This document shows, in pieces, positions 5,214 to 25,186 of a DNA stretch of 56,124 nucleotides; the stretch's first letter is position 1; each line of letters begins with the position of its first letter. The DNA is taken from the NCBI GenBank assembly GCA_945867665.1, contig CAMBIR010000008.1, forward strand, positions 1-56,124. Direction: 5' to 3'. The DNA is from an uncultured Bacillota bacterium (GTDB lineage Bacteria; Bacillota_I; Bacilli_A; RF39; UBA660). The position numbers and the translations under genes are program-made. The notes below the pieces were generated by a model. That model was not told where the DNA came from and searched no databases. It was given only the letters and a program-made list of their open reading frames with translations.

Positions 5214-5242
5214 TTATTTAGGATAGAAGAGTGGTGATGTAG

Positions 5243-8200
5243 GTGAAAAGAAAAAATAAAACAAGCAAAATTTTACTAACAATAATATTAGCACTTATAG
5301 TAATTGCTTCTATTACTACCTATACACTAACTTATAGCGAGTATACTACCACAACAACACTATCAGAAATAGAAAATAACAGTGGTGTATTTGATAATAT
5401 GGTTGTTGTAGATGAAACCGAAAGCGATTATAATTATTACGAAAGTCTAAATTATACAGAAAGTCGAACCGGTTCTTTACCAAGTGGAGAAAATCAAAAT
5501 CTTTATAACGAACAAAATTTAGTAAATGTTGAAATTACTTATGATGGGACTGATATTAATGATAATACTTTAATAGGTTATGTTAGTTTAACTGAAAGAC
5601 AAAATACTTATAAGTATTATAAAGTATATCCAATAAATGATGGATATATAGATATAACCTTAATAGAAAATCCTTTTACAGATAGACCAACCGATAAAGG
5701 ATTTAACGGCTGGATTACAGATTATAAAGGAGCAACAATTCAATATGATGATAATTATTATGAAAGACATGCCAAAATACCTGTAACAGATAAAAGTGAT
5801 ATAAAAATTACCTTTCACGCTAGTTGGTTAACAGCTAATGTAGGAAAGATTACTTCTACATCTAACCAATGGTCAAATGCTTTTAATAGCTTAAAGAATA
5901 AAGGAATGGTTAAAATAGGGGGAACCGTTGCAATCTATGAAGATGTAACAGGACTCTATACTCAAGAAACTGTCACTAGTAGCAGTGGTGGATGGTGGAA
6001 CAGAATATATTATCCAGACAATGCTTATGATAGATATGGAAATGATATATCTGGAAATGAATGCCGTAATTGGAATGGCTGTACTTATTATTCTAAGGTT
6101 ACAGAAAATGTTTATGACCCAAACGCTACTTATTATAAACTATCAACTGGTGGTTGGAATAATCAGATGCAAGCCTATACTCCACAAATTACTGGCTATG
6201 AAAATTTACCAGGATTAGATGACGGAATAATAGTAAGTGGTTATTACAAAAAAATTACAATTGATAGATATTCGTCTATTAGTGGCTATTATAGTGATAC
6301 AGGAGAATACCAAGAAAGTGGAACATGTAATACTTATAGTGGATGTGAATATTATGAATTAATGCAATATTATGATAACGACGGAAATGCTATAATATCT
6401 TCTAGTGATAATGAGTATTATTATCTAGCAACAAGAGATACTAATATTATTGTTATGCAATCTAATACCAGTAGTGTTCCTTCTAGTAGTCAAAATAAAC
6501 CCTATACCTTGACTAGTATATATAACGGAACTAATTATCGAGATAATGTTACATGGAATGTTTCTAGCAACGCTTATCGTGCTTATAGTGATGTAAACAT
6601 AGAAAATATTAAGATAAATTCTAATACTGGTAATAATAGCAGTGGTCCTTCTAGTGGTACTAGTAATTCAAAATATTTTTATGGCAATTATCATAATGTA
6701 AGACTAGGTAGAGGTATTGTCCAAAGTGGTAGTTATAAAACTTTTAATGCTATTATAGCAGGAGATAATAATAGTAGCGATTATTCTTCTACAGGTAGTA
6801 GCAGTAATCCTAATAAATATAAAGTCATCATAGAAAGTGGTTTTTATAACACTATATCATTAGCAAATGCCTCATATAGTAATAGTTCTTCAAGATACTT
6901 AAATAGTAAGGCCATATATGGAAATGATTATGATAAAGTAACAAAGAACAATAATAATCTTGATATTAATTTTTGTGCCTCATCAAGTTGGGGTGGAGGA
7001 AACTATTATGCTGCTAATACAACTACTAGTCTAATCTTTGACTTTATTGTAAAAAGTGGAAAATTTGGATCAGGAAAATCAGATTATGCAACAGGTATCT
7101 ATGTTGGGGGTAGAGGATATGGGGATCATTATGCTCCTAAAAAAGTTAAAGTTGAAGGGGGATGGATTTATAATCTAATAGGGGGACCATCTTCTAGTGA
7201 TGATCGAGATAGTCTAAACGATATATATATGTATATAACAGGAGGAGAAGTTGACTCGGTAGTAGGAGGCGCAGGACTTAGTACCACTTATGGAAATAGA
7301 ATCATAGCGGTAACTGGTGGAGTTATTAATTATCAAGTTTTTGGCGGCTCCAATGGTTATAGTGGATCTAATGGAGATGGTAAATTATCAGGTAGTTCAT
7401 TTATTTATATAGGTGGAAATGCTATCATTGGTAATGAAGATAATGTAAATAATGGCACCAAATTATGGAATGCTGAAGCAGGGTCAGTCTTTGGAATTGG
7501 TAATGGTAAATCAGGCACTGATTCGATTGGAACTAATGATAATTCAACAATTATTGTAGACTCTAATGCTACTATCTTAGGAAATGTCTATGGCGGAGGA
7601 AACTACGGAGCTACGGGAATTAACAGCAGCAGTAATTCAAATTATAGCAATCTCTTTCTATTAGGAGGTACTATAAAAGGAAATGTTTATGGTGGAGGAA
7701 ACAATAACGGAGCTAGCACCTCTAGTAAAAAATTTAAAGTAAATATAACCCTAAATGGAAGCTTAGTTGAAGGATCTATCTATGGAGGCTCAAGAACTAA
7801 AGGAACAGTTTATGGAGATGTTTCCTTAAACCTATTATCAGGAACAGTCAAAACTTCTTGCTATGGTGGAGGAGAAGGTGGATATCAATCTTCTTCAAGT
7901 CCAGGAACATTTGTAACAGGAGAAATAAAAATTATAACAGGAATAGAAAACGAAAGTAATGAAACCTTAAAAATAAAAAATTCCATCTATGGTGGTAGTG
8001 CTTTTGGTACCGTTAATGGCTCAAACGATTCAACAACAATCTCATCAAAAAATACGAATATTGAAGTATTATCTGGAACGATAAATAACATTTTTGGAGG
8101 AGGAGAAGGTAACAGTACTTATACACCTTATGTCCTAGGTAATGTTACAGTTGATATTAAAGGAGGACTAATAACCAATATATTTGGCGGATCTGATCAA

Positions 8201-14719: not shown

Positions 14720-15259
14720 ATGATGAAGAAAGTATTAAAATTATTGGGCGGAATTATCTTAATTCCCTATATATTAGTAGTAATCGTAATGACAGTGTGC
14801 TTATTAAATTATAATAAGTATGGAATAACAGAAATAGGAGATAAAAGCTTTATAATTGTCTCGGATCATTCTTTAGAACCCACATACAAAAAAGGAGATT
14901 TATTAATTGTAACAAATAAAGGTAATGATGATATTACTTCTAATGATTCCATCTTTTTTTACGAACAAAATAAAGAAAAAAAGACTGTTATCATCAATTT
15001 AGCAAAAGTCATTTCTAAAAGAAAAATTACTAATACAGAAACAACTTATGAAATAGAAGGAGACTATGAATATTCCAGTGAATATGTAATAGGATCTGCT
15101 AAAAATACAGTTATTTATCATGGATTAGGTAGTATATTAAAATTATTATCATCAAGATGGATATTTTTATTTGTAATAATATTACCAGTCTTATTTATCT
15201 TCTTATATGAATTATATGAATTCATTCTCGAAGTAAAACGCAACATAAAAGAGGCCTAG
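14720..15259 (+). CDS. SipW-like signal peptidase homologue lacking the catalytic His
   Basis: A 179-residue protein with the SipW layout: TM at about 9-30, a serine box SDHSLEPTYKKGDLL (Ser51, normally followed by Met), and a C-terminal TM at about 148-168. Where active homologues have THxV, this one reads VIINLAKVISK, so no His is in place. The TKGDAN box is replaced by EGDYEYSSEYVIG. It therefore looks catalytically inactive or altered, perhaps a chaperone or anchor for its neighbours. Two consecutive ATGs exist (14720, 14723); AAGGTG favours the second. The stop is directly followed by the ATG of the next gene. Confidence 0.65.
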   Translation: MMKKVLKLLGGIILIPYILVVIVMTVCLLNYNKYGITEIGDKSFIIVSDHSLEPTYKKGDLLIVTNKGNDDITSNDSIFFYEQNKEKKTVIINLAKVISKRKITNTETTYEIEGDYEYSSEYVIGSAKNTVIYHGLGSILKLLSSRWIFLFVIILPVLFIFLYELYEFILEVKRNIKEA

Positions 15260-15856
15260 ATGAAAAAGTATTTTCTATTCGCCCTAACTTTAATGGGTCT
15301 TTTTGTTTTAATCTTTCAAATCTCTAAAACATATTCATTATTTGAAAGTAGTATTATCGATTCAGCTGACATACCTCTTGCCAGTTGGAAAATTAAAGTA
15401 GGAGATACTTATCTTACTTCCTTAACAAGTGAAGATGAAGAATTTGATTTAACTAGTATTAATTGGAGTAATGCTAATCATGTTAGAAAGGGAAAAGGAG
15501 CACCAGGATCCAGTGGAAGTTTTGATGTTATCATAGACCCCCTAACGACAGATACTTCTTTTTTATATAATATTGAAATTGATACAGGTATACTTAATCA
15601 ATCAGGACTTAAAATTACCTCAATTAAAGAAATAAATGGACATGAATTTTCTAATATCAATGAAAATACTTATCAGGGAATAGCCCATCTTAAAGAGATA
15701 AAAAATAAAGAAAAGTATGATATTAAAATTGAATTAGTTTGGGAAGATAATGAAGAAAATAACTCGGCTGACTATGAATTAGGCTCTAGAGCTAATACTA
15801 AAATTAATTTACCTATTCATATTAATATATATCAATATAATAGCGAAGAGGGATAA
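15260..15856 (+). CDS. TasA/camelysin-like exported protein
   Basis: A 198-residue secreted protein. Signal segment at about residues 4-22, junction KTYSLFESSIIDSADIPLASWKIKVG, matching the 'ARWKILV' block of the gene at 2503. The C-terminal strand IELVWEDNEENNSADYE parallels VHLKWNDDEGNGASMDN of that protein, so the two are paralogues on opposite sides of the giant gene. It starts immediately after the stop of the SipW-like gene (TAGATG), with AAAGAGG as SD. It lies two bases before an apparently active SipW (15859), its probable processing enzyme. Confidence 0.7.
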   Translation: MKKYFLFALTLMGLFVLIFQISKTYSLFESSIIDSADIPLASWKIKVGDTYLTSLTSEDEEFDLTSINWSNANHVRKGKGAPGSSGSFDVIIDPLTTDTSFLYNIEIDTGILNQSGLKITSIKEINGHEFSNINENTYQGIAHLKEIKNKEKYDIKIELVWEDNEENNSADYELGSRANTKINLPIHINIYQYNSEEG

Positions 15857-15858
15857 AG

Positions 15859-16440
15859 ATGAAAGTAATAGATAAAATAGGAAATATTATTACCTATATT
15901 TTAATATTTTTAATAACGATAATAATTATTTTTATGACCTATAGTTATATTTCCCTAAATTTACTAAAAAAAGACTATGTAAGCATTTTTGATTACACCT
16001 ACTTTGAAGTAGCCAGTGGTTCTATGGAACCAACCATTGACAAAGATGATTTAGTAATTGTTAAATTAAATAGTACTTATCAAGAAAAAGACATCATAAC
16101 CTATAGCTTAAATAAAGAATTCATAACCCATAGAGTAATTCAAATAGACAGTAAAACAATAACCACTAAAGGAGATGCAAATAATAGTAAAGATGCCAAA
16201 ATAAAAAAGGAAAATGTTTTAGGAAAAGTAGTATTAATAATACCAAAATTCGGAATATGGAAAAAGGTAATAATGACTCCTAAAGTATTTTCATTACTTA
16301 CTATCACTTTAGTCTTATTTAGTTTTACTTTCTCTTATAATAATAAAAGTAAAAGAAAAAAATTAAAAAAGCAGAAAGAAAAAAGAATCCAAAAAGAAAA
16401 AGAGGATAAAATGGAAATACCTATTTTAAAAGATAAATAA
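15859..16440 (+). CDS. SipW-type (ER-like) signal peptidase I, complete motifs
   Basis: A 193-residue membrane peptidase. TM at about 9-31; Ser55 in SGSMEPTIDKDDLVIV; His91 in ITHRV; full TKGDANNSKDAKI box with both Asp residues; C-terminal TM at about 138-156 followed by a Lys/Arg-rich tail. All Ser-His-Asp elements of the SipW/archaeal class are present, so of the three homologues in the window this is the best candidate for an active enzyme. It starts 2 nt after the preceding stop (TAAAGATG) and is flanked by two TasA-like genes. The charged tail may retain it at the inner face of the membrane. Confidence 0.9.
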   Translation: MKVIDKIGNIITYILIFLITIIIIFMTYSYISLNLLKKDYVSIFDYTYFEVASGSMEPTIDKDDLVIVKLNSTYQEKDIITYSLNKEFITHRVIQIDSKTITTKGDANNSKDAKIKKENVLGKVVLIIPKFGIWKKVIMTPKVFSLLTITLVLFSFTFSYNNKSKRKKLKKQKEKRIQKEKEDKMEIPILKDK

Positions 16441-16451
16441 GGGGGGAAATT

Positions 16452-17036
16452 ATGTTTAGTAAAAAAAAGTTTCTTCTTATTTCTAAAATTAATACCTTAT
16501 TTTTAATCTTATTAATCTTAATTAAATTTCTTCCAGTAACTTTCTCTAAATATCAATCATCAGGAATAGGTAACGTAGATACAAGTATAGCATTTTATCT
16601 ATTAGAAGTAGGAAAGTTAAATGAAAGTATAAAAATAAGTGATTTAGTTCCAAGAAGTGAACCATATATCTATATTTTCACTATCTCTAATCAAAAAGAA
16701 AGTAAGATAAGTGATGTAGATATTGAATATATCTTAAAAATTAGAACAACAACAAATTTACCCATACAGTATAAATTATATTTAAATAGTGATTATCAAG
16801 ATAATAGTAGTATAAATTTAATTAATGATAACAACAGTGTAATTGAAAAAGACGGTGATGGTACTTACTTTCAAGAATTTACATTTGCAAGTGAAAGATT
16901 ATATTTTTCTACTCCTAAAGTAAATACCTATACATTATTAATCTATTTTAATGAAAATGACGAAGACGCTACTTATCAAGGAAATATAGAATTAGTTGAA
17001 TTAGATGTTGATTCTAGTAAAATCACTGATAATTAA
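16452..17036 (+). CDS. TasA-like exported protein
   Basis: A 194-residue protein with a strong SD (AAGGGGGGA) 6 nt before the ATG. Basic N-terminus, hydrophobic segment at about 12-30 ending LPVTFSKYQSSGIGNVDTSIAFY. The 'SKYxSSGxGNVDxxIA' start is the form common in SipW-exported Firmicute proteins. The mature part is beta-rich with acidic loops (FNENDEDATYQG, compare WEDNEENNSADY). It is the last gene of the 14720 operon; the next gene has its own leader region. A minor subunit or fibre-assembly role is inferred from context. Confidence 0.7.
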   Translation: MFSKKKFLLISKINTLFLILLILIKFLPVTFSKYQSSGIGNVDTSIAFYLLEVGKLNESIKISDLVPRSEPYIYIFTISNQKESKISDVDIEYILKIRTTTNLPIQYKLYLNSDYQDNSSINLINDNNSVIEKDGDGTYFQEFTFASERLYFSTPKVNTYTLLIYFNENDEDATYQGNIELVELDVDSSKITDN

Positions 17037-17255
17037 AAAAAGATAATGAATTAAAAATTGCAAGAAAAATATTATGATAAGGTAGGTATTAGTTTTGTTA
17101 GATTTTACAAAGTGATAACTAACAAGTAATTTTTTTTTGAAATAAAAAACATAAAAATTGTTGCATTTTGTCGAAAAATATGGTACCATCAAGGTATGAT
17201 AAAAATAGATAGATAGGCTATTTATTAATCAAATATGAATAAAAGGAGTAGAAAA

Positions 17256-18371
17256 ATGGAAGAAAAAGAATTAAAAGAACAAAAAGTTACAAAAAAAAGT
17301 AAAAAAAGACTATTTTTATTACTTTTACTACTTATTGTAACTGGCGTAATCCTTAGTACATCAACTTATGCATGGTTTACTTCTAATAGAACAGTAACAG
17401 TTGAAGATATTGATGTTAACGTTGCAGCTAGTGGAGGTATTCAAGTATCAGTAGATGGTACCAATTGGAAATCTATTATTACTAATGCTGATATAAAAGG
17501 AGCAATTACAACATATCAAGCGGCTACTAATCAGTTACCAAGTACTCTAAAGCCGGTATCAACAGCAGCAAAAAGTTTAAATAATGGCTATTTAAGTATG
17601 TGGTTAGGAACGGTAGAAACAAGTAATACTACTACTAATAAAGGACAATATATTCTTACAACAAAAGATGTAAGTACGGTTAAGGATACTACAGTAGAAG
17701 ATGATGGTGATGCTGGGAAAAATGGTCATTTTGTCATGTTTGATTTATTTGTTCGACTAGATGATAATGGAACTGAGGCAATGCCACTTTATTTAACAAA
17801 ATCATCTGATGTAACATTTAAATCAGGAGGTTCAGATTTAGGAACTCAAAATGCTTCACGGGTTGCTTTTATCAATGAAGGAAGTATCGCAAATGGTTCA
17901 TCGTTAACTGAAATACAAGCATTAAAAACAACGGAGACTTCTAGTATTTATGTATGGGAACCTAACTATGATGCTCATACAACGACTGGTATTTCTAATG
18001 CATACTCGTACTATAATAATGCAAATAGTGGTGATGCTTATACAGCAGCAAATGCAAAAACTCAAGTTCCATATTTTGGTACAATAGCAGAGGTTACAAC
18101 CGCTAATGATGTACTTTTAAGTAAAGCAAATGAAACAGATAATGGACAACAATTTGCAAGTATTACTCCAGGAATTAAAACAAAAGCTGGATGGGCTGAT
18201 GCTACTGGATATGAAAAACTATTTGATTTAACCCCTAATACAATTACAAAAGTAAGAATTTACTTCTGGGTTGAAGGACAAGATATTGACTGCGAAAATA
18301 ATGCTTCTGGTGGAGACATTACTTTAAAACTTCAATTTAGTTTAAATAATAAAGATGCGGCTACTGAATAA
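17256..18371 (+). CDS. TasA-like secreted protein, paralogue of the 3976 gene
   Basis: Start chosen at 17256: AAAAGGAG (17241-17248) is 7 nt before this ATG, whereas the upstream in-frame ATG at 17235 has none. 371 residues. A charged N-terminus is followed by a hydrophobic segment (about 21-40) ending VILSTSTYAWFTSNRTVTVED. The mature part is rich in S, T, N and A and ends WVEGQDIDCENNASGGDITLKL, closely matching the 3976 product. Codon choice is slightly richer in GC-ending codons than its neighbours. A 219-bp leader with a TATGAT box at 17195-17200 precedes it. Its terminator is now separated from it by an inserted ISL3 element. Confidence 0.75.
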   Translation: MEEKELKEQKVTKKSKKRLFLLLLLLIVTGVILSTSTYAWFTSNRTVTVEDIDVNVAASGGIQVSVDGTNWKSIITNADIKGAITTYQAATNQLPSTLKPVSTAAKSLNNGYLSMWLGTVETSNTTTNKGQYILTTKDVSTVKDTTVEDDGDAGKNGHFVMFDLFVRLDDNGTEAMPLYLTKSSDVTFKSGGSDLGTQNASRVAFINEGSIANGSSLTEIQALKTTETSSIYVWEPNYDAHTTTGISNAYSYYNNANSGDAYTAANAKTQVPYFGTIAEVTTANDVLLSKANETDNGQQFASITPGIKTKAGWADATGYEKLFDLTPNTITKVRIYFWVEGQDIDCENNASGGDITLKLQFSLNNKDAATE

Positions 18372-18472: not shown

Positions 18473-19762
18473 TTATGATTTAATAGGATTTAACAATCCT
18501 TTTATTAACATGATTCTTGCTTTCATATGAGAAAATTTTCTATATCCACAAGCAGAATGTTTAACTTGCTTAATTACATTGTTAATTCCTTCGACAATTC
18601 CATTAGAATATTCATAGTCAAATGCATTGACTATATATTTTTCCATATCTTTAAATGTTCTAATAGCTTTTTTCATATATTTAGAAACTTTTTTGTTTTT
18701 GCCATTTATAATACTTAAAAATATGCCTTTATTTTTAGTATCAATTGAATATAAAATAGATTGATATATTTGGTATGTTTCATATAATTCATTGTTTGTG
18801 TTTATTAAATAAGTTACGATTTCTTCTTGAGTCATATTCTTTTTGAAACATTTTTGATATTTTTTCTTAGTTTTATTTAGTTCTCTTTTGTCTTTAAGAA
18901 TTAATTTCCAATATTTTTTAAGTTTAGTGTAATTTGGATTTGATTTATAACATAGTTTTATTCTTGTTTTATCAAGTGCATTTCTAGCTTGAATTACAAT
19001 ATGAAATCTATCAGGTATTAATATTGCATTTTTAAATAAAGAATGCATTAATTTATAATAAGGTTTATATAAATCTAAAGTAATGAATTTTACTTTATCT
19101 CTTTCATTTTTTGGATATCTTTTAAAATACTTTTCAATATCAGTTGATAATCTACTGTTATTAATATCAAAAATGTTTTTATTGGTTTGATCAACGATAA
19201 TAAAAGCCATTTTAGAAATAGTATCTTTAGTAGCTTTAAATTCATCAATTCCCATAATTTCTGGAAGTTTTCCATTATTTTTAATTAAATTGTCTTTAGA
19301 AATAGAATCTAATATTTTATTGGTAGAAGAAGATGAAATATTGTTCTTTTTGGATATATATTTTTCAGGGATTTTATCCATCAAATCTAGAATAACTGAA
19401 TTTCTAGTATCATTAGATATTTGCTTATGAGAATCCACAAAATCAGTAGTGGCAGTAAAAGTAGAGTTACAATATTTACATAAAAATCTTTGCTTATCTA
19501 ATAATAAAATAGTATCAAAATTTCCTACTCGTGTAGTTTTAATTTTACAATTTTTCTTAAATCCATATTTTATTATTGTTTCAGGATTGGATTCATATAA
19601 GCAACCACAATTAGGACAAACCTCAGGAGTATAAGAAAGTTTTCCGTGGAAAACTTTAATAGATTTATCCTTAATTTTTTTAATTTCTAAACAATCTTCT
19701 TCAAAAGTAATATTTTCATCTTTAATATTTAAGATATTTCTAGTATAATGAGATAGAGACAT
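18473..19762 (-). CDS. ISL3-family transposase
   Basis: Start at ATG 19762 (MSLSHYTRN), preceded on the reverse strand by AAAGGATC; an upstream in-frame TTG at 19780 overlaps that SD and is less likely. 429 residues. An N-terminal zinc finger (CPNCGC ... CKYC) is followed by a helix-turn-helix region and a DDE core: GIDEFK, TLDLYKPY with PDRFHI, and the C-terminal NGIVEGINNVIKQVKHSACGYR carrying the Glu. Length and motifs are complete for the DDE_Tnp_ISL3 family, so the enzyme could be active. It shares family with the broken copy at 23598. Confidence 0.9.
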   Translation of the reverse strand: MSLSHYTRNILNIKDENITFEEDCLEIKKIKDKSIKVFHGKLSYTPEVCPNCGCLYESNPETIIKYGFKKNCKIKTTRVGNFDTILLLDKQRFLCKYCNSTFTATTDFVDSHKQISNDTRNSVILDLMDKIPEKYISKKNNISSSSTNKILDSISKDNLIKNNGKLPEIMGIDEFKATKDTISKMAFIIVDQTNKNIFDINNSRLSTDIEKYFKRYPKNERDKVKFITLDLYKPYYKLMHSLFKNAILIPDRFHIVIQARNALDKTRIKLCYKSNPNYTKLKKYWKLILKDKRELNKTKKKYQKCFKKNMTQEEIVTYLINTNNELYETYQIYQSILYSIDTKNKGIFLSIINGKNKKVSKYMKKAIRTFKDMEKYIVNAFDYEYSNGIVEGINNVIKQVKHSACGYRKFSHMKARIMLIKGLLNPIKS

Positions 19763-19891
19763 ATAATCAGATCCTTTCAATGTTTTGTGAGCAATTACAT
19801 TGTATCATAAGTAAATCTGATATGTCTCATTTTTAATAAATAAAAATAGTATCAGTGATATACCTCACCAACACTAAATATTATAGAACCA

Positions 19892-20075: not shown

Positions 20076-20180
20076 ATGAAAGAAGTTAAAGAATTAATAG
20101 GGTTAAAAGGTACTAATGTAAAGGTATTATCAATTGAAGAAAAAGTAGAAAATAATGAGAAAATAAAGATTATAAATTAA
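20076..20180 (+). pseudogene. N-terminal stub of an ISL3-type transposase
   Basis: AAAGGAG precedes an ATG encoding 34 residues (MKEVKELIGLKGTNVKVL...) that end in TAA. The start closely parallels the N-terminus of the broken transposase at 23598 (MNEVKKLI...). The upstream 120 bp also resemble those at 23480-23597 (TATAATTAAGTTGC against TATAATTAAATTGC). It is therefore a relic of a second ISL3 subfamily, cut off before the zinc finger. Confidence 0.55.
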
Positions 20181-20267
20181 AAGCATAAATTATAGGATAT
20201 CAGTATTACTTAAAATTTAGGGTGTGAATAGTTAATGAATTTAGATTAACTAGGAGTAAAAAATGCG

Positions 20268-20293
20268 TTTTTTTTTTTTTTTTTTGGTAAAAT
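20268..20293 (+). promoter_or_regulatory. 18-T homopolymer abutting an extended -10 box
   Basis: An uninterrupted run of 18 T (20268-20285) is followed at once by GG and TAAAAT (20288-20293), with TGG forming an extended -10. The following GTG start is 33 nt downstream. The -35 region falls in or just before the T run, so its length would change promoter spacing. No stable hairpin with a GC stem precedes the run, which argues against a plain terminator. Confidence 0.45.
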
Positions 20294-20325
20294 TTTAAGT
20301 AAGATAGGTAAGAGAGGTGTTCAAA

Positions 20326-20958
20326 GTGAAGGAAGATAATAAAAAAATATTTATCTTAGTGATTGTGATTATGGGAGTTGTTATTTTGGTTGCTGGGGGA
20401 ACTTTTGCTTATTTTGCATTTAAAACGAGTAATAATAATACCATTACTGGTAGTATGGGAAGTGTTGATTTAAATTTGACGGTTACAAAGGAGTTGCCTA
20501 GTACTAGTGGAGTTGATGATATCTTGGTAACTAATTTTAGTGAGTTACCAGATAATTTAAATAATAAGTGTATTGATAGTGATGGAGAGTATGCTTTATG
20601 TCAGTTATATAAAATTGTTTTATCCAATAGTAGTAATGGAGTAAATACGAAAGTTAAGGGAAGTGTTTCTTTTAATAATACAACAAGTCCTAATTTAAGT
20701 TGGATAAGAATAGATAATTATAGTAGTTCTACTACTTATACAAGTAGTACTTTAGGAAGTAGTTATCATACAGCAAGTAGTAGCTTTGATGCATTTGAGA
20801 GTAGTTATTTATTAAAGAGTGGGAATAGTGTTACTTACTATATTTTAGTATGGGTAAATGAGAATGAAGAAGAACAGACCGATACGGGTACTTATACAGG
20901 AACAGTTAGATTTGAAGATGAAAATGGTAAAGGTGTTACTTCAACATTTGGAGCATAA
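20326..20958 (+). CDS. TasA-like exported protein
   Basis: Start placed at GTG 20326 because AGAGAGGTG (20311-20319) is correctly spaced for it; an in-frame GTG at 20317 lies inside that SD. 210 residues: short basic N-terminus, hydrophobic segment at about 6-28 ending GGTFAYFAFKTSNNNTITGSMG, the classic SipW-type junction. The mature part is Ser/Thr/Asn-rich and beta-rich, with two Cys (CIDSDGEYALC) that could form a disulfide, and a late strand YYILVWVNENEEEQTDTGTYTGTVRF. The next gene begins 17 nt after the stop and shares the same CVDxxGxxxCQxYK block. Confidence 0.8.
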   Translation: MKEDNKKIFILVIVIMGVVILVAGGTFAYFAFKTSNNNTITGSMGSVDLNLTVTKELPSTSGVDDILVTNFSELPDNLNNKCIDSDGEYALCQLYKIVLSNSSNGVNTKVKGSVSFNNTTSPNLSWIRIDNYSSSTTYTSSTLGSSYHTASSSFDAFESSYLLKSGNSVTYYILVWVNENEEEQTDTGTYTGTVRFEDENGKGVTSTFGA

Positions 20959-20975: not shown

Positions 20976-23237
20976 ATGAAAAAGAATAAAATAGTAATTT
21001 TTAATAAATATATTTTTCTACTTCTTGTTGTATTTGCCTTTTTAGTAACAGGAGCTACTTATTCTTATTTGGCTTATCAATATCAAAATAATTCTGTGAT
21101 AAAAGGTAATGTTATCGCGGTTGATGCAGAACTTAATGTTGAATTAGTTAAGGGGAGTAATAGTAAACTTATTCCTTTAAAAGATGATGGATTAACAAAA
21201 GCCATTAATGGGACAGGAGGAGAAGATGTTTGTGTAGATGCGAATGGGAACTTGTCTTGTCAGATATATAAGATTACTTTAACAAATAAAGGGAGTAGAA
21301 TTCATGATTTAAAAGGAACGATTGAATTGTATGCGTCTGACGCGAGCAGTAAATATACCAATTTAAGCTGGAGAGAATTAAGTGATTTAACAACAGTTAA
21401 AGATGGAAGCATTGTTAATGGAATGAGTCAATCTACTTTAGTTAATAATTTAACAATGGAATCTAAAGAAGTTAGAACTTGGAATATAGCTGTATATTTA
21501 AAAGAGGTAGATAGTGATCAAACTAACACAGATAAAGGAAAGTTTGGAGGTACGGTTACTTTTAAGACATCAACTGGAGAACTTACTAGTACAATTGCTA
21601 AAACAGCAGTTATGGATAATATTCAAAGTACTTATGTATCATCATCTACTGGTGTAGATTTTTCTAAGATATCATCTGATAAGAATGGTAAGGGAGTATA
21701 TATTAGAAGTGGAACAGAAAATGATACCAATCCAATCTATTACTATCGTGGAGCTGTAACTAATAATAATGTCTTATTTGCAGGTTATTGTTGGAAGATA
21801 GTAAGGACAACCGAAACTGGAGGAACAAAGTTAATTTATAATGGTGTGCAAAAAGAGGTATATGATTCTAATCCGATAGAAGAAGGAGAATATACAAATG
21901 TTACTAACGATGCAACTTATCCATATACATATGATAGTACCAGTAAGACTTGGACAAGTACAAATAAGACAGATGATGCTACTGGAACAATTACTTTTGG
22001 TGTAAAAGCAGCAGGAGTTTATCTGTTTAATTATACTGTATCATCTGAGGAAGATTATGATAAGGCAATTCTTTACAAAGATGGAACAAAAATTGGAGAA
22101 TATAGTGGTAGTTTTAGTAAAAGTATTTCTTTGGGAGAACTTACCACATCAAGTGTGATAAAAGTAGATTATACCAAAGATAGTAGTGATTCTAGTGGAA
22201 ATGACAATGTTGTATTTAGTATAGAAAAAGCAGTTGGAGAACCTAAAAAAAGTTGTAATAATACAGGAACTAATTCTCAAATAGGAACTAGTGCATTTAA
22301 TTCTAGCACTAATTCACCAGCATATGTAGGATATATGTATGGGAATGTTTATACATATAGTTCTAAAAGCATGAGTAGTATAACAGATAGCTATTATTAT
22401 GGAAAAAGTGTAACTTATTCAAATGGTACCTATACTTTAACAGATACCATTACAAGTAATAGTTGGTCATCTATCTATAATACAACAGATGGTATCTATA
22501 ATCATCATTATACATGCTTTAGTACCTCAAATAGCTGTAGTAGTGTTTATTATGTGTATATTACCGCTAGTTCGTCTGCATATTATATAACTTTAAGTAA
22601 TGGAAAAAAAGTAGAAGATGCTTTAAGTGAAATGTTAGATGATAATACAACAGATAGTACAATAAAAACATCAATAGATAATTGGTATAAAACAAATATA
22701 GAAAGTACAGGTTATACAAAATATCTAGAAGATACTATCTTTTGTAATGACCGAAGTATATATTATAAAGGAGGTTGGGATCCAGACGGAGGAATTAGTG
22801 TTATTAGCGAAACGGGAGGTGATTTGGGTTTTTCTGCTGGAGCTAGGATTGTTGAACAAGAACAACCTAATTTAATTTGTTCAAGAAATGTTGATAAATT
22901 TACAACAAGTACAAGTAATGGAAACGGGAAATTAACTTATCCTGTAGGTTTGTTAACTACTGATGAGATGTTTCTAACAGGTCTCGCTGCAAGTATTAGT
23001 GATGATCAAAACAGTTCATTTTACCTCTATAATGGGCAAGACTACTGGTCGGGCGCGCCTTGTAACTTTAATAGTGACTTTTCGGTTGTTTTTCGTGTCA
23101 CTTCTTCAGGTGCTCTTAGCTATCCTAATGTCACTTATAGCCTTGGGGTGCGGCCTTCGATTTCACTTAGCCCCGGGACCGAGATAAGTGCAGGGGATGG
23201 AAGTTATGAGAATCCTTATTTGGTTCAAGAATCTTGA
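20976..23237 (+). CDS. Modular exported protein: TasA-like N-terminus plus GVRP-type C-terminal domain
   Basis: 753 residues. Signal segment at about 10-30 (VTGATYSYLAYQYQNNSVIKG), then a TasA-like domain to about 205 containing CVDANGNLSCQIYKITLTNKG as in the preceding protein. The middle (about 330-430) looks like a beta-sandwich insert. The C-terminal 250 residues carry FAGYCWKIVRTTETGGTKLIY, GLLTTDEMFLTG and a final YWSGAPC ... VFRVTSSGALSYP ... LGVRPSISLSPG. The W-S-G ... GVRP ending is that of C-type-lectin/FGE-like domains common in gut Firmicute surface proteins and in diversity-generating-retroelement targets. The last 190 bp (23040-23230) are markedly GC-richer than the rest (GGGCGCGCC, CCCCGGG). 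A ligand-binding surface protein is inferred. Confidence 0.75.
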   Translation: MKKNKIVIFNKYIFLLLVVFAFLVTGATYSYLAYQYQNNSVIKGNVIAVDAELNVELVKGSNSKLIPLKDDGLTKAINGTGGEDVCVDANGNLSCQIYKITLTNKGSRIHDLKGTIELYASDASSKYTNLSWRELSDLTTVKDGSIVNGMSQSTLVNNLTMESKEVRTWNIAVYLKEVDSDQTNTDKGKFGGTVTFKTSTGELTSTIAKTAVMDNIQSTYVSSSTGVDFSKISSDKNGKGVYIRSGTENDTNPIYYYRGAVTNNNVLFAGYCWKIVRTTETGGTKLIYNGVQKEVYDSNPIEEGEYTNVTNDATYPYTYDSTSKTWTSTNKTDDATGTITFGVKAAGVYLFNYTVSSEEDYDKAILYKDGTKIGEYSGSFSKSISLGELTTSSVIKVDYTKDSSDSSGNDNVVFSIEKAVGEPKKSCNNTGTNSQIGTSAFNSSTNSPAYVGYMYGNVYTYSSKSMSSITDSYYYGKSVTYSNGTYTLTDTITSNSWSSIYNTTDGIYNHHYTCFSTSNSCSSVYYVYITASSSAYYITLSNGKKVEDALSEMLDDNTTDSTIKTSIDNWYKTNIESTGYTKYLEDTIFCNDRSIYYKGGWDPDGGISVISETGGDLGFSAGARIVEQEQPNLICSRNVDKFTTSTSNGNGKLTYPVGLLTTDEMFLTGLAASISDDQNSSFYLYNGQDYWSGAPCNFNSDFSVVFRVTSSGALSYPNVTYSLGVRPSISLSPGTEISAGDGSYENPYLVQES

Positions 23238-23281
23238 TTATTTTGATATTAAGAAGTATGGTTCTTCGAAGTTCGGCTCTC

Positions 23282-23398
23282 CACGTTTTGATGGGAGTTT
23301 AAAAAATAGTTTTTCGACGAAATGTTGGGAAACTTTTTTTCTAATCTACACGAATTAGTGGGAAGTTTTCTTAATAAAACTCCACGAATTAATGGGAA
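23282..23398. repeat. Three short imperfect repeats in the 3' region of the surface operon
   Basis: CACGAATTAGTGGGAA (23349-23364) and CACGAATTAATGGGAA (23383-23398) differ by one base; CACGTTTTGATGGGAG (23282-23297) is a weaker copy, with the inverted form CTCCCATCAAAAAG at about 24775. No gene is visible between 23238 and 23441. Confidence 0.55.
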
Positions 23399-25177: not shown

Positions 25178-25186
25178 TGCTATAAT
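25178..25186 (+). promoter_or_regulatory. Extended -10 promoter of polC
   Basis: TGC TATAAT (25178-25186), 29 nt before the ATG, directly after a nine-T run. No clear -35. Confidence 0.55.

Follow-up and report, generated by a model that had tools for sequence, protein, structure and literature searches.

A T18 homopolymer in the promoter of a predicted surface-protein operon from an uncultured Bacilli bacterium: a probable length-driven expression switch

The window, a stretch of 56,124 nucleotides on contig CAMBIR010000008.1 of an uncultured Bacillota bacterium (lineage RF39), contains a two-gene operon standing between ISL3-type transposase genes (Table 1). A run of 18 T residues (T18), bracketed by AAAATGCG and GGTAAAAT, precedes the operon; the run is read directly from the sequence, as are the GG (20286-20287) and TAAAAT (20288-20293) that follow it.

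Table 1. Features of the T18 promoter, the operon behind it and the adjoining transposase genes
Feature	Position	Strand	Basis
T18 homopolymer, putative -35/-10 spacer	20268..20285	+	sequence, run counts, genome search
Extended -10, TGGTAAAAT	20285..20293	+	sequence; TGGTAGAAT in sister-species (G005) copies C19 and C97
-35-like hexamer ATGCGT, weak, without TTG	20263..20268	+	inferred from position
GTAAAAA tract, putatively UP-like, just 5' of the -35-like hexamer	20256..20262	+	sequence
Dyad AGTTAA-N10-TTAACT, possible operator	20230..20251	+	
Ribosome-binding site GAGAGGTG	20312..20319	+	sequence
Gene 1, 210 aa, N-terminal membrane helix and beta-rich domain, weakly camelysin-like	20326..20958	+	
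Gene 2, 753 aa	20976..23237	+	
ISL3 transposase gene	18473-19780		
Short ORF resembling an ISL3 N-terminal remnant	20078-20182		
Broken ISL3 gene	about 23600-24355		

Gene 1 matches camelysin (Peptidase_M73) with 19.6 bits, below the cut-off of 22.5. Its structure model is weak (pLDDT 59.5), with generic structural matches of low TM. Four further species of the genus have relatives of it, as does contig 15 of the own genome (G000), and the N-terminal ~200 aa of gene 2 are related to such gene-1-type proteins (elsewhere in the genus and on the same G000 contig). For gene 2, Pfam and NCBIfam gave no match, and its structure model was unusable (pLDDT 35.8). Sequence searches against solved structures were uninformative. 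The initial annotation had seen in the two genes exposed proteins, one TasA-like and one lectin-like. Exposure is likely for both products; the TasA likeness of gene 1 comes down to the sub-threshold camelysin match, and we found no support for a lectin-like gene 2. Upstream, the signal peptidase gene at 15859-16440 scores over the TIGR02228 cut-off and also matches SipW, below cut-off. A second, weaker signal peptidase match lies at 14720-15259, and the protein encoded at 17235-18371 has a sub-threshold SipW-cognate signal. SipW-like signal peptidases and TasA/SipW-cognate-type proteins upstream of the operon (14720-18371) fit the export of TasA/camelysin-type proteins.

Some other features of the neighbourhood were recorded. 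The 3' end of gene 2 (22925-23299) has a GC content of 43-44%, against ~28-30% around it, and a negative AT skew. A diversity-generating retroelement at this end was considered and rejected, as no template repeat was seen: 22960-23300 has no second copy in seven genus genomes, including its own (E<=1e-6). A 49-bp segment (20186-20234) shows 88% identity with a portion of an imperfect palindrome on contig 21 of another genome (G004), and the GGTGTGAATAGTTA part of this segment also stands ahead of one T-run promoter of the sister species (contig C38). A search of viral_contigs with the locus flank returned no match.

Homopolymers of any base elsewhere in the window reach at most 9 nt (six runs), half the length of T18, and Markov models of order 0-4 fitted to the window predict only 4e-5 to 2e-4 runs of T>=18. 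In the draft genome G000 (1,313,295 bases, 28 contigs) a T14 pattern search gave T18 as its single match, and the other strand gave none; T18 is thus the sole A/T run of at least 14 there. Its final T, together with GG, supplies the TGn of a complete extended -10, and a long pure repeat hence overlaps a promoter, itself recognized from sequence. The initial annotation was accurate in describing the longest homopolymer of the window, by far, beside TAAAAT with TGG as extended -10, and the promoter position of the run is supported by the sequence. It had also put the run upstream of the core promoter, whereas we place it inside, as the -35/-10 spacer, since a -35 located 15-19 nt upstream of the extended -10 falls inside the run or at its 5' edge. 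The putative -35, ATGCGT, corresponds in position to the TTGC that borders T-runs in the sister species and to the TTG of 12 of 19 comparable runs in other genomes (see below).

The window has 12 TGnTAnAAT sites no more than 130 nt from an ORF that has a ribosome-binding site, and only at the T18 site are all 15 of the 15 nucleotides just upstream T (next, 11; polC site at 25178, 8). A promoter-scan program predicted 46 sites in the window and 56.9 in shuffled sequences, fewer than chance, and was given no evidential weight. Gene 1 starts with GTG at 20326, 32 nt after the extended -10. The leader is short, because ribosome-binding site (20312-20319) and start codon are close to the promoter. 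The dyad motif AGTTA-N12-TAACT matches the window once (0.29 expected), and 25 of 100 shuffles had at least one match. The sequence AGGAG-N6-ATG occurs at 20252-20267, just before the T-run, and the end of this leader frame depends on T-length modulo 3.

Among seven genus genomes searched, T15 is present in G000, G003 and G005, the last being the sister species (uncultured Bacilli bacterium BRZ_MK__bin36). G005 has 14 T15 runs with another base after them, and two more that run to the contig end. All nine places that match TTATTAGTTAAAAATAGTTGCTTT with at most three mismatches are in G005. Eight copies carry a 26-nt block, GTAACTTATTAGTTAAAAATAGTTGC (26/26 in six, 25/26 in two). Mean pairwise identity is 98% in this block and 42% (ungapped) in the preceding 50 nt. 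One further site, on contig C44 (T7, before an ABC-transporter-like gene), keeps 21 of 26 block bases and was left out of the family. The T-runs behind the eight blocks measure T9, T23, T24, T24, T31, T36 and twice at least 69 (69 reaching the contig end), the long values being rough because the contigs are low-coverage short-read assemblies (coverage 4.94 and 5.17). Moreover, contig C97 begins inside a T-run of 53 followed by GGTAGAATGACG, like C19, and in C124 a T26 run is joined to a variant of the block. In half of the eight copies (C28, C33, C38 and C78) other bases replace GGTAGAAT, the GG with the -10, after the T-run.

Upstream elements of the window promoter recur in these copies. GTTAAAAATAG stands where the window has its GTAAAAA tract, and AGTTAC-N10-GTAACT is found at the place of the dyad in three of nine promoter copies (the eight family copies and C124), the form common to these and the window being AGTTAM-N10-KTAACT. 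The window promoter (20218-20296) aligns with that of C38 at 64 of 84 positions (76%), and T18 stands where C38 has T23. The length comparison thus covers paralogous G005 copies and one homologous promoter, with one genome per species. Near-identical flanks with unlike T-lengths, as in G005, are the pattern that slippage leaves. The conserved flank and the very different lengths speak for a hypermutable kind of tract, and to this extent the phase variation proposed in the initial annotation gains support. A general mutator is unsupported. mutS scored over the cut-off in six of seven genus genomes, including G000 and G005 (the miss is a 58%-complete genome), which leaves no general repair defect to raise slippage in these two.

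Where genes are visible behind the G005 promoters (C19, C28, C33 and C115, four of the eight, and C97), they are paralogues with a signal-like N-terminus in common, alike over the first 60-70 residues and partly different in their C-terminal parts. Five G005 loci (L045, L047, L049, L055, L070) with T-run promoters share the N-terminal sequence ...YAANTIYSxNVTYDNSNSGLxATNVQDALDETY. Weak similarity links the C-terminal part of gene 2 to the G005 T-run proteins (E ~1e-6, 21-24% identity, without composition correction). These match protein L091 from the Bacilli MAG CALVKM with E 6e-22; gene 2 itself matches L091 directly with only E 0.005.

On a wider scale, genome_contigs (84,980 species) was searched for T14+GGTARAAT, which gave 19 stretches with 20 matches; one run at a contig edge was dropped, leaving 19 readable runs. 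A TTG, as of a -35, lies within 5 nt of the 5' edge in 12 of them, against 1.89 expected (binomial tail 2.5e-8), the runs not being independent, as they come from 16 genomes (TTG in 10 of 16). The spacers from TTG to the -10 are 17, 18, 14 or 19, 17, 13, 36, 18, 20, 16, 15, 17 and 17 (16-18 in seven of 12). By eye, genes of surface type follow T-run promoters in the Bacilli MAGs CALVKM (T20, T23) and CALVYM (T17), and an Elusimicrobia MAG (L093) has two adjacent pilin-like genes, each with a T15 spacer (5233-5249 and 6000-6016) between TTGC(G) and GGTAAAAT. One T19-GG site stands before a dehydrogenase-like gene, also by eye. The shorter pattern T11+GGTA occurs once or twice per genome in ten of the scanned genomes searched. 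T14+GG was found in four of 386 family genomes and is no commoner than its reversed control (also four genomes). All five of its sites in this set have an adjacent -10-like hexamer, as judged by eye.

Together, the above observations suggest that T18 is probably an expression switch driven by tract length, a type familiar from other bacteria, here in an uncultured lineage. That the tract varies in length, by whatever mechanism, is likely. With moderate confidence we favor a specific version, in which T18 is the spacer of a slippage-driven, spacing-sensitive and phase-variable promoter of the two predicted surface-protein genes. The promoter would be of sigma-A type with TGGTAAAAT as its extended -10, and slipped-strand mispairing in replication would add or remove T residues. 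Gain or loss would shift the distance and helical phase of the weak -35/A-tract contact relative to the -10, and so switch or tune transcription of genes 1 and 2. With ATGCGT as -35, T18 gives a spacer of 19 nt, and T16 would give 17. The extended -10 is independent of the number of T residues and could sustain basal transcription, which makes graded output likelier than a strict on/off switch.

The spacing-sensitive reading has weak points. The -35 at the locus is only ATGCGT, without TTG, and the G005 lengths (9, then at least 23) are never near 17, so that all copies would be off by a plain spacing rule. Also against it count the other bases after the T-run in four of the eight G005 copies, the occurrence of T14+GG in no more family genomes than its control, the T19-GG site before a dehydrogenase-like gene, and the intact mutS. 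The very long G005 tracts are impossible as spacers of an active -35 promoter. The complete extended -10, the poor -35 and the A-tract and dyad directly upstream would likewise suit a rheostat based on DNA structure. In such a rheostat, a rigid, curved T-tract of variable length shifts the alignment of the upstream A-tract/alpha-subunit or regulator contacts with a -35-independent extended -10 promoter, as described for sabA of H. pylori and, with a repressor involved, for nadA of N. meningitidis. On the other hand, 12 of the 19 comparable T-runs are bordered by a TTG (seven of them with spacers of 16-18), for which a promoter without need of a -35 would have no use, and the dyad is exact in only three of nine G005 copies. 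We regard this alternative as unlikely. Also unlikely, and ranked below it, is an ordinary promoter whose spacer merely happens to be unusually pure in T, with no biologically relevant switching. T-rich spacers are indeed common. Of eight upstream regions of gene-1 relatives read by eye, five contain TTG-17/18-(-10) promoters of the ordinary type, whose spacers are mixed and often rich in T; a further two are operon-internal, and the last lacks a clear -35. These relatives thus need no tract, and the window has the pure-T version of a normal layout. The polC promoter has T9 before GCTATAAT, a T-rich promoter precedes the gene read as rpsB on G000 contig 17, mutS is intact, and the tract is a single copy in its genome. 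Against a static spacer, homopolymer tracts as long as T18 are known to slip, the window should by chance contain only ~1e-4 T>=18 runs, and lengths differ among near-identical G005 promoters.

The same layout also arises as a fusion of terminator and promoter, which counts against the switch reading. By eye, a hairpin directly precedes the T-run at L083, L086, L097 and L103 and at both sites of one IMG/VR phage contig (L130, 862; L131, 6059), where the order hairpin-T15/T14-GGTAAAAT joins a terminator to a promoter. T18 could accordingly belong to an intrinsic terminator as its U-tract, shielding the operon from the upstream insertion-sequence remnant, with a promoter grown into it. We consider this very improbable at the locus itself, where no stable GC-bearing hairpin abuts T18 (folding z-scores 0.83 and -0.46), the terminator scan was negative and the dyad ends 16 nt before the run. 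Least probable of all is a translational switch, with the T-run inside a leader ORF (AGGAG-N6-ATG at 20263) that is coupled to gene 1 and whose stop is set by length modulo 3. Ribosome-binding site and ATG are good, and T16 or T19 would make the leader overlap the start of gene 1 while T17 or T18 would give an early stop; yet transcription would have to come from further up, the extended -10 lies downstream of the leader ATG, and the G005 copies have no such ATG.

Promoter homopolymers that switch surface genes are known from several bacteria. In Mycoplasma hyorhinis, poly-A tracts in the vlp promoters switch surface-protein genes (PMC10502178). A homopolymer in the promoter of surface-protein genes is common to both, and the multi-gene set of G005, with one tract each, resembles the vlp family. 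The vlp tract is an A-tract with proven switching, whereas the window has a T-tract on the coding strand whose switching we infer; G000, with one T>=14 run, has no multi-gene family with own tracts of the sort seen in G005. The gene products had no Vlp match in Pfam or NCBIfam scans, and the combination of poly-A tract and vlp lipoprotein was not found. H. pylori has T/A-tracts of 9-16 at surface-gene promoters, 9 of 25 listed between -35 and -10, including those of hopZ, babA, babB and hopG; sabA, with its tract upstream of the -35, is a rheostat (PMC4081817). The window tract abuts an extended -10, with a putative -35, and H. pylori is an unrelated organism with unrelated genes in which length effects were measured (PMC4081817). 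In Bordetella fim2, fim3 and fimX, which are surface-structure genes, a homopolymer likewise separates an upstream contact from the -10, but it is a C-tract and depends on an activator at the fim box (PMC1891110). N. meningitidis nadA has a variable promoter repeat with operator sites nearby; these flank the repeat and bind the known repressor NadR, whereas the window has only a putative dyad (PMC2791445). If its length varies, the T18 promoter likely works like the vlp, fim and hop/sab promoters.

More tentatively, and with rather less than even confidence, the promoters may belong to an undescribed contingency system of uncultured Bacilli. This would be a dispersed poly-T-spacer cassette, made up of the conserved 26-nt block or GGTTGA, a T-run and GGTARAAT. 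The genes behind it would encode signal-bearing proteins with distantly related C-terminal regions in common, one species having a family of paralogues and others just one or a few copies; the TTG-Tn-GG-TARAAT layout would have arisen independently in Elusimicrobia, Clostridia and Helicobacter. Our literature search found no paper on RF39 with phase variation and, among the matches listed, none on poly-T promoters in uncultured Bacilli, which is no proof of absence.

If the switch reading is true, an uncultured Bacilli lineage with small genomes uses tract-length switching for surface proteins despite an intact mutS, and one of its species, G005, has a multi-gene switching set. T-length spectra in existing metagenomes would be a simple test of switching from reads only, and the promoter signature can be searched for similar switches elsewhere.
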